From Rhodanobacter fulvus Jip2 (lineage in GTDB: Bacteria; Pseudomonadota; Gammaproteobacteria; Xanthomonadales; Rhodanobacteraceae): DNA of 64,000 bases. The stretch covers positions 1 through 64,000 of the forward strand of contig NZ_AJXU01000051.1 in the NCBI RefSeq assembly GCF_000264315.1, in the 5' to 3' direction. The notes below the pieces were generated by a model. The model was given only the letters and a program-made list of their open reading frames with translations, did not search any database and was not told where the DNA came from. Position 1 is the first letter of the stretch, and every line of letters starts with the position of its first letter. The translations under genes were made by a program, and so were the position numbers. Below, piece after piece: positions 41,270-56,694 of the stretch.

Positions 41270-41355
41270 GCCGGTGTGGCGGAATGGTAGACGCGGCGGA
41301 CTCAAAATCCGCTGGCAGCGATGTCGTGTAGGTTCGAGTCCTATCACCGGTACCA
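41270..41355 (+). tRNA. tRNA-Leu (anticodon CAA)
   Basis: An 86-base class II tRNA. The acceptor arm GCCGGTG pairs with CACCGGT (one G-U), the anticodon arm is GCGGA-CTCAAAA-TCCGC with anticodon CAA, there is a long variable arm, the T arm holds GTTCGAGTC, and the CCA end is encoded. It lies between metX and the prophage-like region and is a plausible phage attachment site. Confidence 0.95.
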
Positions 41356-48465: not shown

Positions 48466-49064
48466 AGCAAGCCCTCAAGAAAGCCGCCGACCTGGTAGAG
48501 CCCCGATTCCTTCGGTTGCACGGGTTGCTTCATGCCCTGGTCGACTGACTCGGCAGTTTTCTCCGGCTCCTGCTGCTGCGTCACGGGCGCCAGTGTCGTG
48601 GTGGCGGTCTCCACGATGATCACTTGCCGCATGCCCACTTCGATCACTAGCGTGCTATTGGTCTTGGCGTCGGTCACGGTATCGAGGCTCACGATCACCA
48701 TGTTGTCGTAGGTGCGTTTTCCAGTAACCACACCCAGCGGCGAGCGCTGGTTCATCAGCTCCAACAGGGCCGGATAGGCATCCTCGGCGTTGTTCGATGA
48801 TCCACCGACATCGAAGAACGAGGCAGCATCGCTCCAGCCGATCGTCATCAGCAGTTCGGACGGACGCGAAAAGGCGTGATCGGTAACCGGTGCGCCGCTG
48901 TCGATCGGGTGATCGGTCAACGCCACCTCGTCGCGGTGATGCTCCTGAATTGTCACCTGCGGCACGATGTAACTGATCGACCGCCGGGTATGCAGGAACA
49001 CATCTTCCAACTGGCCGAGCGCGCCGACAGCGCCCGCCTTAACCAGGCCAGACAGCGTGCTCAT
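48462..49064 (-). CDS. Dit-like phage tail/baseplate protein
   Basis: 200 residues. The N-terminal part has VTIQEHHRDEVALTDHPIDSGAPVTDHAF and SRPSELLMTIGWSDA, followed by YPALLELMNQRSPLGVVTGKRTYDNMVI, the typical pattern of the Dit-like N-terminal domain that caps the tail tube. A Gln/Glu/Pro-rich C-terminal tail follows. It overlaps the tape-measure stop by 4 bp. Confidence 0.82.
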   Translation of the reverse strand: MSTLSGLVKAGAVGALGQLEDVFLHTRRSISYIVPQVTIQEHHRDEVALTDHPIDSGAPVTDHAFSRPSELLMTIGWSDAASFFDVGGSSNNAEDAYPALLELMNQRSPLGVVTGKRTYDNMVIVSLDTVTDAKTNSTLVIEVGMRQVIIVETATTTLAPVTQQQEPEKTAESVDQGMKQPVQPKESGLYQVGGFLEGLL

Positions 49065-50902
49065 GACGCCGCCGGCATCAGGTTGCGGGCAGCGCGCTTG
49101 TTCACCCCATCCTGCCGGCGTGCCACTTCTTGGCCTGCGGCCTGCGCATCCTTGGCCCCGTAGATGTTGATGTTCGTCTCCTGCTGAAGTGTCCGGCTTG
49201 AGGCGCTGGCACCGGTCGCGGCCTGGCGGTACATGTCGGACGAATACGGATTCTGACCGTTCTCGTGGCTGACGATGCCGCGCATCAGGCCCTGCATCAC
49301 GGACGGGTCTTGCAGGTTGAGCTTGGTGCCCGGCGCCACGCCAAGCGCCTTGGCGAGGCTGGCGGCATAAGCGCCCGTGTCGTTCTCGCTGGCCGGCGCG
49401 TACTTGGCCACGATCGCGTTGATCGTGTCGGTGCCGCGGCTGCCGTACAGCGACAACTGCTGCGCCAGCGCATTCAAGCCGGCCTGCGGCGTACCGAACG
49501 CCGCAAAGCGCGCATTGGGTCCGGATTCCAGCGAGGCGCCGCGCTGACCGGCGTAGTTGAGGTTGCCGGGGTTGTTATTGCGGATGCCGCGCGGGCCGGC
49601 GCTCGCCTCCGGATCGGTCAGGTACTGATCGGGAATCTTCTCCCCGGTGCGCGGATCGTAGCCGGCACCGTAGGCCAGGCTCTGGAGCAAGCGGTGGATG
49701 GCGCTGCCACGCTGGCGCTGGTCGTTCGCCGTCGATCCATTCTCGATCTCGGCGGCCTTTTTCGCGGCGAATCCACCCACCGCGTCGCCTGCGGCTTTGC
49801 GCCACTTGTTGAGGGTCTTCAGCGCTTCGATCAGCACGTTCACGGCGCCGACGGCCAGGTCGATCTCGGTCTTCCAGTTTTTCCAGTCGATCAGGCTTTT
49901 GCCGCCCTCCTTCCAGGTCTTGTAGTCATCGAACAGCGCAAGGATGGCCAGCCCGAGCGTGATGACTCGGCCAATGGGTGAGGCAGCGAACAGCGCGTTC
50001 ATCACCTTCCAGATCGCCACGATGGCAATCACCCCTTTCAGAAACCCTTGTGTTTCCGGATCAAGGCGGCGGTAGGCATCGGCAAGGTTCCCGAAAATCT
50101 CCACGGCACGGGTGATGATCGATGTCACGAGGTGACCGAACGCGGCCAAGCCCTGCACGATCTTGTCGATCACCCGGCTGATCAATCCGCCGTTGTGCTC
50201 AATCCATCGGCGCGCCTTCTCGATGACAGGGGTCAGCGTGCCGGCGAAGGCCGTGAAGAACTTCTTGCCAAGGATGTCGACATAGCTACCCAGGCCGCGC
50301 AGCTGCACCATGAAGCCGTGCGAGGTCTTCGCCGCCCCCTCGGAGTCGTAGCCCACGGCCTTGGCCATGCGCTTGTACTCGTCGGAGAACTTGCCCACCC
50401 CGCTGCGCAACGCGATCAGCGTCTTTTCGTCGATCCCCAGCACCTGCGCATACCGCGCCGCCCGGTAATACGGCATCTTCGCCAGCCGCTGGCCAATGTC
50501 GGCCATGATCTCGCTGGTGTCGCGCATCTGGCCGTTGGCGTCACGGGTCTGCACGCCCAGCGCCTTGATCCACGACTCGCCGCCCGGCTTCTCACGCATG
50601 AAGCGCGCGATGCTCTCGATGGCGTTCAACGCACCGTCAGCGGAACCGCCTAGATCGGCCACGGCGTACTGCATCGCCTGGATGCCGCGCACCGACGCCT
50701 GCGAGCGCTGCGAGGCGAAGAACATCCGCTCCATCGCATTGGTGGCAGCCACGGTACCGGCCACCAGCGCAGTCAGGGCCACGCCCAGCCCGGCCACCAC
50801 CTTGGTGGATTTCTCCACGCCGCGCACGAACTGGCGCTCTTGGGTGCCGTTTACCTCGTAGCCAAGGCTGACGAGAAACTCTCGGATGACGGACGATTCC
50901 AT
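49061..50902 (-). CDS. Tail tape measure protein with C-terminal peptidoglycan-active-like domain
   Basis: A 613-residue tape measure. The N-terminal half is helical, with a hydrophobic stretch (VVAGLGVALTALVAGTVAATNAME) and further membrane-like helices at about 325-370. Residues about 470-560 form a domain (GPRGIRNNNPGNLNYAGQRG, RFAAFGTPQAGLNALAQQL, YAPASENDTGAYAASLAKAL) like the GIRNNNPGN-type domain found in lytic phage structural proteins, which are thought to cut peptidoglycan during DNA entry. The ATG (50902) overlaps the TAA of the frameshifted chaperone frame, which supports that frame being translated. Confidence 0.85.
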   Translation of the reverse strand: MESSVIREFLVSLGYEVNGTQERQFVRGVEKSTKVVAGLGVALTALVAGTVAATNAMERMFFASQRSQASVRGIQAMQYAVADLGGSADGALNAIESIARFMREKPGGESWIKALGVQTRDANGQMRDTSEIMADIGQRLAKMPYYRAARYAQVLGIDEKTLIALRSGVGKFSDEYKRMAKAVGYDSEGAAKTSHGFMVQLRGLGSYVDILGKKFFTAFAGTLTPVIEKARRWIEHNGGLISRVIDKIVQGLAAFGHLVTSIITRAVEIFGNLADAYRRLDPETQGFLKGVIAIVAIWKVMNALFAASPIGRVITLGLAILALFDDYKTWKEGGKSLIDWKNWKTEIDLAVGAVNVLIEALKTLNKWRKAAGDAVGGFAAKKAAEIENGSTANDQRQRGSAIHRLLQSLAYGAGYDPRTGEKIPDQYLTDPEASAGPRGIRNNNPGNLNYAGQRGASLESGPNARFAAFGTPQAGLNALAQQLSLYGSRGTDTINAIVAKYAPASENDTGAYAASLAKALGVAPGTKLNLQDPSVMQGLMRGIVSHENGQNPYSSDMYRQAATGASASSRTLQQETNINIYGAKDAQAAGQEVARRQDGVNKRAARNLMPAAS

Positions 50903-51131
50903 TACTTCGATGCCTCTTCGGCCAGGGTGCGGTTGTCGTCCATCACGTCGAGCGCATCGTTCATCAGAGCGATGTCCGCGAGGTCAAGGGTGCAGTCGAG
51001 CAAGCTTTCGTAGCGGCACATGCCCTTGATCACGGGGCGAAGAAGCCAGTCTTCGCCACCGGGAAGGGTTCGCCAACGGCTTACGGCTGGGGCGCCTGCG
51101 GGGCTTGCGAGTCGCTGATAACGCTCTGTGG
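50902..51131 (-). CDS. -1 frameshift extension of the tail assembly chaperone (gpGT-like)
   Basis: After the T7 slippery run at 51132-51138, the -1 frame stays open for 76 codons. It begins STERYQRLASPAGAPAVS, continues through LPGGEDWLLRPVIKGM and ends NRTLAEEASK, with TAA at 50902-50904. It has no start codon of its own and no ribosome-binding site. It ends exactly where the tape-measure gene begins (TAATG overlap). Position and structure match the T part of lambda-type G/GT chaperones. The fusion product would be 118 + 76 = 194 residues. Confidence 0.85.
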
Positions 51132-51485
51132 AAAAAAACGCCCCAGGTTCTCCATGATCACCTTGCCGAGAATCTGCAGCAGCTCCGGCAACTCGATGTC
51201 ATCGAACATCAGCGTGGCGTTGGTATCCACCGCGGTCCAATTGCTGCCCTGCTTGCGCTGCACCACGCCGAGACAGGTGTGCACCACCCAGTCGAAGTCA
51301 TCCTCGGGCAGGCCGGCAATGGCATCGGCCATCGGCCCGGCGTAATCCACGATTGTCTTGGCGCCTTGCTGCTGGGCCTTGACGATGCTGCCCAGGGCCG
51401 GCGCGGCGCGGCGGACCAGGTGCAGCTGCTTGAACGTGTCGAGCTTGCGGCTGGAGTACTCGTGGCCGTTGATTTCGAAGTTCAT
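51081..51485 (-). CDS. Tail assembly chaperone, gpG-like
   Basis: Zero-frame product of 134 residues, MNFEINGHEYSSRKLDTFKQLHLVRR through DDFDWVVHTCLGVVQRK and LPELLQILGKVIMENLGRFFPQS, ending SQAPQAPQP. It is placed directly upstream of the tape measure, as tail assembly chaperones are. Codons 117-118 (TTT TTT), preceded by CGT, form the slippery run. The start overlaps the tube gene stop (ATGA). Confidence 0.88.
   Translation of the reverse strand: MNFEINGHEYSSRKLDTFKQLHLVRRAAPALGSIVKAQQQGAKTIVDYAGPMADAIAGLPEDDFDWVVHTCLGVVQRKQGSNWTAVDTNATLMFDDIELPELLQILGKVIMENLGRFFPQSVISDSQAPQAPQP
51132..51138 (-). other. Programmed -1 ribosomal frameshift site (T TTT TTT)
   Basis: The minus-strand run of seven T is phased as X XXY YYZ in the chaperone zero frame (codons CGT TTT TTT CCA). 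A slip of -1 joins the zero frame to the downstream open frame ending at 50902. The location, 51 bp before the zero-frame stop, is the classic place in tail chaperone genes. Confidence 0.85.
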
Positions 51486-51940
51486 CAGAAGGCGTCCGCG
51501 AGGCTGCCCAGCAGCTGGTCGATCTTGATCACGTCGAACACCCACTCCATCGTGCCGCCCTCGTTGGCATAGGTGTTGGTCGGCTGGCGCTTGAACGCGG
51601 CGCCACGGCCGACGATGGTGTCGCCGCTGACGGGGTTGGTGATGGTGATGACGTTCTGTCCGTGCAGGCGGGAGCTGATGGTCTGGGCATTGTAGGCCAC
51701 CGATAGCTTGGCGTTGGCCGGCGAGGTCTTGAGCAGCCGCACGGTGATCTGGCCGGACTTGTCGCCCATCAGGTTGTGCATGCCGTTGCCGTCGGCGCCC
51801 ATGGTCATGACGTTCTTGTCGTTGGCCATTTCCACGGTGATGCCCTCGGCGGCATTGCCGACACCGGCGCCCAGGTCGATGACGCCGGTGACGCCGGCAA
51901 GCGTCGCGTTGACGTCGAGAAACGAGTAGGTCTGAGACAT
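51485..51940 (-). CDS. Tail tube protein (DUF3277)
   Basis: 151 residues, MSQTYSFLDVNATLAGVTGVIDLGAG, with EGITVEMANDKNVMTMGADGNGMHNLMGDKSGQITVRLLKTSPAN, the DUF3277 pattern, followed by GTMEWVFDVIKIDQLLG. It follows the sheath gene, as a tube gene does in contractile tails. Confidence 0.9.
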   Translation of the reverse strand: MSQTYSFLDVNATLAGVTGVIDLGAGVGNAAEGITVEMANDKNVMTMGADGNGMHNLMGDKSGQITVRLLKTSPANAKLSVAYNAQTISSRLHGQNVITITNPVSGDTIVGRGAAFKRQPTNTYANEGGTMEWVFDVIKIDQLLGSLADAF

Positions 51941-51955: not shown

Positions 51956-53419
51956 TTATCGGTTCACGTTGATGAGGACATCGGCGCTGTGAACCGCACC
52001 GGCGAGCTTGAGGGCAATCTGGATCGGCGGCGCCTTGCGGGCCTCGCGGTCGGCCTGGCTCTGCGTGGCGATCTTCGGCGCGTAGACGTAGAAGCCGGTC
52101 GAGAGCGTGTCGCCCTGGCTCAGCGAACCGAAGCCCGCGGCATTCCACACGCCCGGCGCGACCAGGCCATTCGTCACCGACTGGTCGAGCGTGCGGTTGA
52201 TCGTGGTGACCAGCTGGTTCACGCCGGCATCCGTCTGCGGGATCTTCGGGTTCGTGTAGAGCAGGTTGTAAACCGCCGTCTGCACGGCGTTCTGCAACCA
52301 GGCCAGCCCGTGCACCTCGTCGAAGTAGTAGCCATTGGCCACCACGCCCTGCTGCAGGATCGCTGTCGCGTTGTTGTACTTCACGAACACGTTGCCGTGG
52401 TTCGCGTTGATGGCGGCGGCCTGCGAGGCGGAAATGTCTTCCGCGACGACGCCCGGCTCCTGCTTGAACTTGAGCGTGATCGTGGTGTTGGAGCCGTCGA
52501 AGTTGACGGTGAAGGCGCGCCCGAACGCCGACGCGGCGGCATACGGGTTGCTGGAGCTGTACTGCCAGAAGGTGCGCTGGTATTTCAGCTGCGCGAGGCG
52601 GTAGCCCAGCGAGGTTGTTTGCCCGGTCACCAGCTCCTGCGCATCCTGCGACGTGACGCCATACACCCGGGAGGTGCCGACACCTTCGATGAAGGCGGCA
52701 ACCGCCAGCACATCGTCATCATCGACACCCGCCGCAGCAACCACCAGGCCGTACCAGTCCGACGACTTGTCGGCCAGGTCGGCCACGGCATCGACCAAGG
52801 TTTCCGCCGCGACGCCAGCGACCGGCGCCTCCGCCTGTGAGGCCTGCATCTTGAGCAGGCTGGCCACGGCGCCGTCAGCCGCTGCGGTGATCGTGCTGGT
52901 GATGCCCGTGGTGGCGCTGACGATCTCGAAACGCGCCGCCGCGGCATTCCAGGTCACCGTGCCCGCGCTGGTCAACGCAGTGGTCAGCGTGCCAGCCACC
53001 GCGTTCAGATTGTCGTCGTCGCTGAAGTCGAGCGCGGTGAGGTTCTTTACCGTCCCGTTGATGGACAGGCTGAGCGTACCGGAGGTGATCGCCTGGAATG
53101 GGCCGATGGCCTGATCAGCCAGCGTCAGCACGCCGCCCCGAATCGACGCACTGGTCGCGCTCTGGGCCCACTCGCCCAGGTAGGCCAGCGAAGGCTGCGG
53201 GCTCTGCGCGAAGAACAGCGCGGCGGCCTTGTACTCCGGCGCGGTCGTGCCGAAGTCGACCGCAATGTCGTCGAGATTCGTGTAGGCGCGAAGCCGTTCG
53301 GCGGTCGTGACGATGCCGGACGATCCAAGAATCAGGATCGAGCCGAAGTTGCGCTCTGCCGCCGCCGTCGGCGAGAGGCTCACCGTGACGTTGACGACGC
53401 TGCTGACGGAAAGGGTCAT
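51956..53419 (-). CDS. Contractile tail sheath protein (DUF3383)
   Basis: 487 residues. N-terminal LSVSSVVNVTVSLSPTAAAERNFGSILILGSS, a central domain with SSDWYGLVVAAAGVDDDDVLAVAAFIEG, and the C-terminal AILQQGVVANGYYFDEVHGLAWLQNAVQTAVYNLLY and IPQTDAGVNQLVTTI, all DUF3383 hallmarks. It is the sheath that contracts around the DUF3277 tube. Its presence shows that the phage is a myovirus. Confidence 0.92.
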   Translation of the reverse strand: MTLSVSSVVNVTVSLSPTAAAERNFGSILILGSSGIVTTAERLRAYTNLDDIAVDFGTTAPEYKAAALFFAQSPQPSLAYLGEWAQSATSASIRGGVLTLADQAIGPFQAITSGTLSLSINGTVKNLTALDFSDDDNLNAVAGTLTTALTSAGTVTWNAAAARFEIVSATTGITSTITAAADGAVASLLKMQASQAEAPVAGVAAETLVDAVADLADKSSDWYGLVVAAAGVDDDDVLAVAAFIEGVGTSRVYGVTSQDAQELVTGQTTSLGYRLAQLKYQRTFWQYSSSNPYAAASAFGRAFTVNFDGSNTTITLKFKQEPGVVAEDISASQAAAINANHGNVFVKYNNATAILQQGVVANGYYFDEVHGLAWLQNAVQTAVYNLLYTNPKIPQTDAGVNQLVTTINRTLDQSVTNGLVAPGVWNAAGFGSLSQGDTLSTGFYVYAPKIATQSQADREARKAPPIQIALKLAGAVHSADVLINVNR

Positions 53420-56620: not shown

Positions 56621-56694
56621 GGGGTAGGTCTCCGAATCGCGGCCACAAAAAAACCGCCTCAAGGGCGGCCCGGTGGTGACGCTGTGGGTAGGGG

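Follow-up and report, generated by a model that had tools for sequence, protein, structure and literature searches.

The tail assembly chaperone gene of a prophage in Rhodanobacter fulvus Jip2 very probably yields two forms of its product through a -1 programmed frameshift of the lambda G/GT type. The sequence, the phase of the slip site, the conservation of that site and of the -1 frame, and the domain families on either side of it are observed. Coordinates throughout are those of the window, the whole 64 kb stretch of DNA that was analysed, and its relevant features are the following.

51081..51485, minus strand: tail assembly chaperone, zero frame, short form of 134 aa (open reading frame; PF21822, phrog_1688; AF2 model)
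51132..51138, minus strand: slippery heptamer T TTT TTT (in zero-frame phase; the homologous codon is the slip site in relatives)
50902..51132, minus strand: -1 extension, 76 codons plus stop, C-terminus of the predicted 194-aa product (PF21829, phrog_4364)
51150..51153, minus strand: possible stimulator (a lead only), an SD-like GGAG lying 11 nt before the slip run
51109..51126, minus strand: small hairpin predicted 5 nt downstream of the run (not better than shuffled sequence)
49061..50902, minus strand: tape measure protein gene, its start overlapping the extension stop (TAATG; phrog_2276, E 2e-131)
51485..51940, minus strand: structural protein of the tail tube type, encoded immediately upstream of the chaperone (PF11681 KPP10_Orf10, E 2.3e-49)
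51956..53419, minus strand: tail sheath protein (phrog_205, E 6.8e-132; PF11863 DUF3383)

Locus layout and the two reading frames

Read as an open reading frame, the chaperone zero frame runs on the minus strand from an ATG at 51485 to a stop ending at 51081. Seven T at positions 51138-51132 are read in this frame as CGT TTT TTT, which puts T TTT TTT in zero-frame phase near the stop, as the original prediction had proposed; the distance of 51 bp that it gave counts the stop, with 48 nt lying between the run and the stop codon itself. From 51132 the -1 frame continues for 76 codons without a stop, up to a TAA at 50904-50902 that overlaps the ATG of the tape measure gene at 50902, and slippage at the run would join 118 zero-frame residues to these 76. 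The open stretch, its end at the tape measure start, the length of the fusion and the peptides that had been quoted for it were all confirmed on re-reading. The window holds two A/T runs of at least seven, one of which is the slip run. The other, at 56647-56653, lies near the 5' end of a listed capsid ORF with a TTG start, and by eye the likely true start of that ORF (MKQL) falls after the run.

The chaperone gene is placed between the genes for the tail tube and the tape measure, the identity of the tube following the annotation of Burkholderia phage Magia (putative tail tube protein). Further contractile-tail neighbours comprise a Dit-like protein, a hub-type protein and a protein with a GpV apex motif, and the tail genes belong to a contractile-tailed prophage.

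Conservation of the offset, the slip site and the -1 protein

Relatives came from three sources: named phage records, IMG/VR contigs (of 271, the best 80 were taken) and genomes belonging to the host class and genus. Of the 103 loci obtained, one (L004) was dropped, having no extension match at E <= 1 and a weak genome match, and among the remaining 102 are the locus of the window itself and an IMG/VR copy identical to it; 82 are distinct in sequence. Setting aside L032 and L055 left 80, which were reduced to 45 representatives under 80% identity, and L055, in which the stop lies further on, was added back as a 46th in the codon, SD-like and T-run counts. Because the loci were found through the extension, its presence in them is by selection, whereas its frame relative to the chaperone was not selected. 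At E <= 0.001, a search of 369 genomes from the host class for DUF6889, the family to which the extension belongs, gave matches in 2 (with only one over the family cut-off), and a search of 45 genomes from the genus likewise gave 2, the window's own genome included in both counts.

The extension lies at -1 to the chaperone in 101 of the 102 loci (81 of the 82 distinct ones). In the one exception, L032, the chaperone frame is broken upstream, and the junction still reads G GGA AAT with a -1 offset. A strong heptamer is found 27-66 nt before the zero-frame stop in 39 of the 45 representatives, compared with 0.36 expected from how often these heptamers occur in phase in the rest of the genes (3 of 5192 positions); out-of-phase heptamers occupy 6 of 1170 positions in the same stretch. 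L055 has C CCT TTT at the homologous codon, 96 nt from its stop, which brings the canonical sites to 40 of 46. Counting the first heptamer where several overlap, the sites in the 45 representatives are G GGA AAT (13), C CCT TTT (8), T TTT TTT (6), A AAT TTT (4), T TTT TTC (4), G GGT TTT (2), T TTT TTA (1) and C CCT TTC (1). The six sites among the 46 that are non-canonical have only N NNT TTT, namely G CCT TTT (2), G GAT TTT (2), T GGT TTT and T CCT TTT; at these the UUU in the A-site can re-pair and the P-site codon cannot do so fully.

The slip sites align to a single position of the protein, following a conserved L-G type motif. The Phe codon after this motif is TTT in 40 of 46 loci, where the codon usage of the individual loci would predict 15.2, and since the Phe was chosen by the protein alone the comparison is not circular. 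Downstream of the zero-frame stop, the -1 frame has a pn/ps of 0.37, and the two remaining frames have 1.26 and 1.48 (990 representative pairs, gap-aware; these values supersede an earlier version that ignored gaps, with 0.84 in frame and 1.11 and 1.07 in the shifted frames). Judged by this substitution pattern, the extension evolves as a protein in the -1 frame. The DNA of the window is 65% GC, so the openness of the -1 frame alone is weak evidence, and it is the conservation of the heptamer and of the encoded protein, in the counts and ratios just given, that lifts this frame above chance. Conservation of the -1 frame across related phages had been put forward as a check on the original prediction, and together with a match to DUF6889 in all 45 representative extensions (E <= 0.01) the common offset and the recurrent heptamer support the lambda G/GT logic that it invoked.

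The same comparison bears on two readings in which the ribosome need not slip. Homopolymers are prone to sequencing error, and the count of seven T comes from the assembly sequence; were the true run T8, chaperone and extension would form one continuous ORF. Such an error, which had been named beforehand as a possible flaw, has next to no probability, because another genome of the same genus (L005) carries T TTT TTT at the same codon. The same heptamer also occurs there in four more diverged representatives, L012, L038, L052 and L060, and diverged phages retain the -1 offset with quite different heptamers. A homopolymer run at the site could allow RNA polymerase to add or drop a U, giving mixed mRNAs some of which encode the fusion. 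Seven T is shorter than the Tn, n > 8, given for transcriptional realignment (PMC3711429), and T7 is present at the site in only 6 of 46 representatives (the window among them), with T6 in 12 and T5 or shorter in 28; at the same codon relatives have, for instance, G GGA AAT or C CCT TTT. The variation of the heptamer between lineages argues against transcriptional slippage, which we regard as extremely unlikely, as it does against sequencing error.

Domain families and the start codons of the extension

The two parts of the predicted fusion belong to separate families. The chaperone matches Pfam PF21822 Phage_TAC_15 (E 5.2e-29; 101.8 bits against a curated cut-off of 22) and the tail assembly chaperone family phrog_1688 (E 2.8e-32), and Phage_TAC_15 was matched at E <= 0.01 by all 37 of the aligned homologues, the chaperone alignment having taken in 37 of the 45 representatives. 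The extension matches Pfam PF21829 DUF6889 (E 2e-17; 63.1 bits against a curated cut-off of 23.9) and phrog_4364 (E 1.7e-19), both of which are listed as of unknown function in their libraries. These matches place DUF6889 and phrog_4364 as the C-terminal domain of a predicted frameshift-made tail chaperone. The AF2 model of the chaperone has a mean pLDDT of 89.7, and that of the extension alone, with a mean of 79.0, consists of two helices with the first 20 residues poorly modelled. Foldseek searches of both models against the PDB returned no match at E <= 0.001, and in a profile search of the sequences of solved structures there was no hit below E 0.05 for the chaperone and none up to E 1 for the extension.

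The DUF6889 model, of 40 positions, aligns only from residue 39 of the extension. In the alignment, conservation of the extension begins earlier, with R7 and then from residue 23 on, so that the match leaves out the conserved LPGGEDWLLRP part (residues 23-33). The match starts one residue past an internal Met, which suggests that the Pfam family may derive from ORFs whose start was placed at that Met.

It was claimed originally that the extension has no start codon, and this proved incorrect: the window has six in-frame starts, the first being GTG 51033 at codon 34, followed by ATG 51021, TTG 51003, ATG 50964, GTG 50946 and ATG 50943. The extension might accordingly be a separate small gene translated from a start of its own (GTG 51033 and ATG 51021 are examples), and its initiation might be coupled to termination of the chaperone. 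The position of the Pfam match relative to the internal Met would fit such a gene, as would the one or more start codons that 20 of the 45 representatives have in the open -1 frame ahead of the core. Annotators have also called it in this way, with a separate ORF over part of the extension listed in 8 of the 18 annotated phage records that carry it, nothing beyond the chaperone end in another 8, and a joined product in 2 (3 further records without annotation stand outside the 18). However, the first in-frame start of the window comes after the whole LPGGEDWLLRP block, and therefore translation from any of the six would remove this block entirely. By eye, none of five of these starts has a well-placed Shine-Dalgarno sequence, and at ATG 51021 an AAGG lies only about 2-3 nt away. 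In 30 of the 45 representatives no ATG, GTG or TTG lies between the slip and the LP of the core, and in 16 of the 45 the stretch free of such codons reaches ten codons past the beginning of the core; when the whole open -1 frame upstream is included, 25 of 45 still have no start before LP. A -1 offset in all but one of the loci, with slip sites enriched at one codon, is unexpected for an independent gene. We therefore consider a separate gene very unlikely and retain the -1 frameshift as the very probable source of the extension.

Proposed mechanism and candidate stimulators

In the proposed mechanism, most ribosomes would terminate at 51081 and release the 134-aa short chaperone. A minority would move back by one base on T TTT TTT, the tRNAs in the P-site and A-site re-pairing on UUU, and would continue in the -1 frame, producing a protein of 194 aa with DUF6889 in its last 76 residues. 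By analogy with lambda gpG and gpGT, many copies of the short form would coat the tape measure protein, while a few copies of the long form would recruit the tail-tube subunit through the extension. For lambda, binding of the extension to the major tail protein and of the short part to the tape measure is described in PMC5009743; for the prophage these binding roles, as well as the slippage itself and its efficiency, are inferred.

The features around the site may include a stimulator. Downstream RNA structure is often, though not always, part of -1 frameshift sites. Plain folding of the 45, 60 and 80 nt after the slip run of the window gave z-scores of -0.59, +0.46 and +0.32, no better than shuffled sequences, and a 70 nt stretch gave +1.16; the 45 nt fold, at -8.8 kcal/mol, contains the small hairpin listed above. 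Across the 45 representatives there is a slight signal, with a mean z of -0.72 and 7 values below -2 after the slip, compared with means of -0.11 (1 below -2) and -0.08 (3 below -2) for control stretches. Among relatives with the same T run, a 10-bp hairpin is predicted for L060, 7 nt downstream of the run (z -1.78), and the folds of L005, L012 and L038 have z-scores of -0.39, +0.32 and -0.15. The hairpin of L060 implies that structure may be lineage-specific.

Upstream of the slip, the GGAG of the window is a possible stimulator. Of 46 representatives, 16 have an SD-like tetramer ending 6-14 nt upstream of the slip, as do 5 of the 6 members of the TTTTTTT group, and the background rate is 10% in 5028 in-phase windows taken from the rest of the gene. 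This enrichment could also be explained by amino-acid constraint, because the tetramer often falls, by eye, in the codons of a recurrent QD/KD pair.

Comparison with described systems and prophage surroundings

In lambda the G/GT gene sits before the tape measure gene, and its slip heptamer is G GGA AAG. The T TTT TTT of the prophage differs from this heptamer, and no relation of the prophage proteins to solved structures was detected in sequence or fold. In lambda, -1 frameshifting yields gpGT at a low level alongside gpG, an arrangement described in PMC5009743 as widely conserved in long-tailed phages.

Closer counterparts are found in Burkholderia phage Magia (MT701587) and Klebsiella phage Mulock (MN098327), the records of which annotate a joined frameshift product; for the homologous gene of Magia, a programmed translational frameshift is stated in the phage's paper (PMC7883833). 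Both phages have a homologous chaperone and extension, a -1 offset and a gene order as in the prophage, with extensions that are 58% (Magia) and 38% (Mulock) identical to its own. At the homologous codon, where the prophage has T TTT TTT, Magia has C CCT TTT and Mulock has G GGA AAT overlapping A AAT TTT and T TTT TTG. A paper on a related set of Bordetella phages names a tail assembly chaperone, with the word frameshift appearing once, in its reference list (PMC10269795). In Klebsiella phage ST16-OXA48phi5.2 (L023 1567-1719) the separate ORF of the extension is annotated as 'NTP pyrophosphohydrolase', probably a wrong name.

More distant or diverged cases share the layout of a chaperone followed by an open -1 frame. 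For Pseudomonas phage Adele, a conserved -1 frameshift, giving TAC-N and TAC-NC, and a GTTTTT motif are described in the Vandenendeviridae, the motif being reported in the Andersonviridae as well (PMC12846349). Going by that description, on which the comparison with Adele is based, a chaperone is likewise followed by a -1 extension up to the tape measure gene; the phage families are different and the T-rich site is another one. ORF13 of Pseudomonas phage KPP10 (genus Nankokuvirus) also matches Phage_TAC_15 (E 9.2e-25) and has an open -1 frame past its stop, but the extension there, ORF14, is of another family, phrog_4625 (locus L108 4661-5289). Its last 150 nt contain no canonical heptamer, and by eye the T-rich site is G GTT TTT. 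Edwardsiella phage vB_EpM_ZHS (L104 1486-2165) is a diverged case in which the -1 frame carries DUF6889 (E 3.4e-9) and the extension is annotated as a separate hypothetical protein; here too no canonical heptamer occurs in the last 150 nt, with G GAT TTT as the site by eye.

The 6 of 46 sites that lack X XXY YYZ indicate that the simple two-tRNA rule is not universal in this set. One reading is that across Phage_TAC_15 chaperones P-site re-pairing is optional, some lineages frameshifting at a fixed codon with only the A-site UUU re-pairing fully, which would make the classical two-tRNA rule dispensable; the lineages with G CCT TTT, T CCT TTT, T GGT TTT and G GAT TTT, and KPP10 with G GTT TTT, would then be of this kind. 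We put this forward as a conjecture that is more probably wrong than right by a good way. PRFect lists looser motifs, including twofour and twoonefour (PMC10885494), whose names suggest that the six non-canonical sites fall under them. The different heptamers that occur naturally at this one codon offer a ready test set for slip-site rules.

The frameshift is ordinary in kind, and the picture of how phage tails are built is unchanged by it. The modest addition is that DUF6889 is probably the frameshift-made C-terminus of the chaperone; no paper tying this family to a chaperone frameshift was found in the literature searched, and correct annotation of the extension would help.

The prophage surroundings gave several further observations. 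A 28-base exact repeat of the 3' end of tRNA-Leu (caa) occurs at 41328-41355 of the window and at 88312-88339 of the contig, about 47 kb apart and on one strand, and the two copies are most likely the attL and attR of the prophage. The IMG/VR contig L024, of 46,533 bp, has an identical extension. Between the tRNA and the tail genes, and on the plus strand opposite to the latter, a gene at 41605-43104 matches GH130 (E 2.2e-10) and the N-terminal part of GH32 (E 1.4e-9) and has, by eye, a lipoprotein-like start; this glycoside hydrolase-like gene is possibly prophage cargo.
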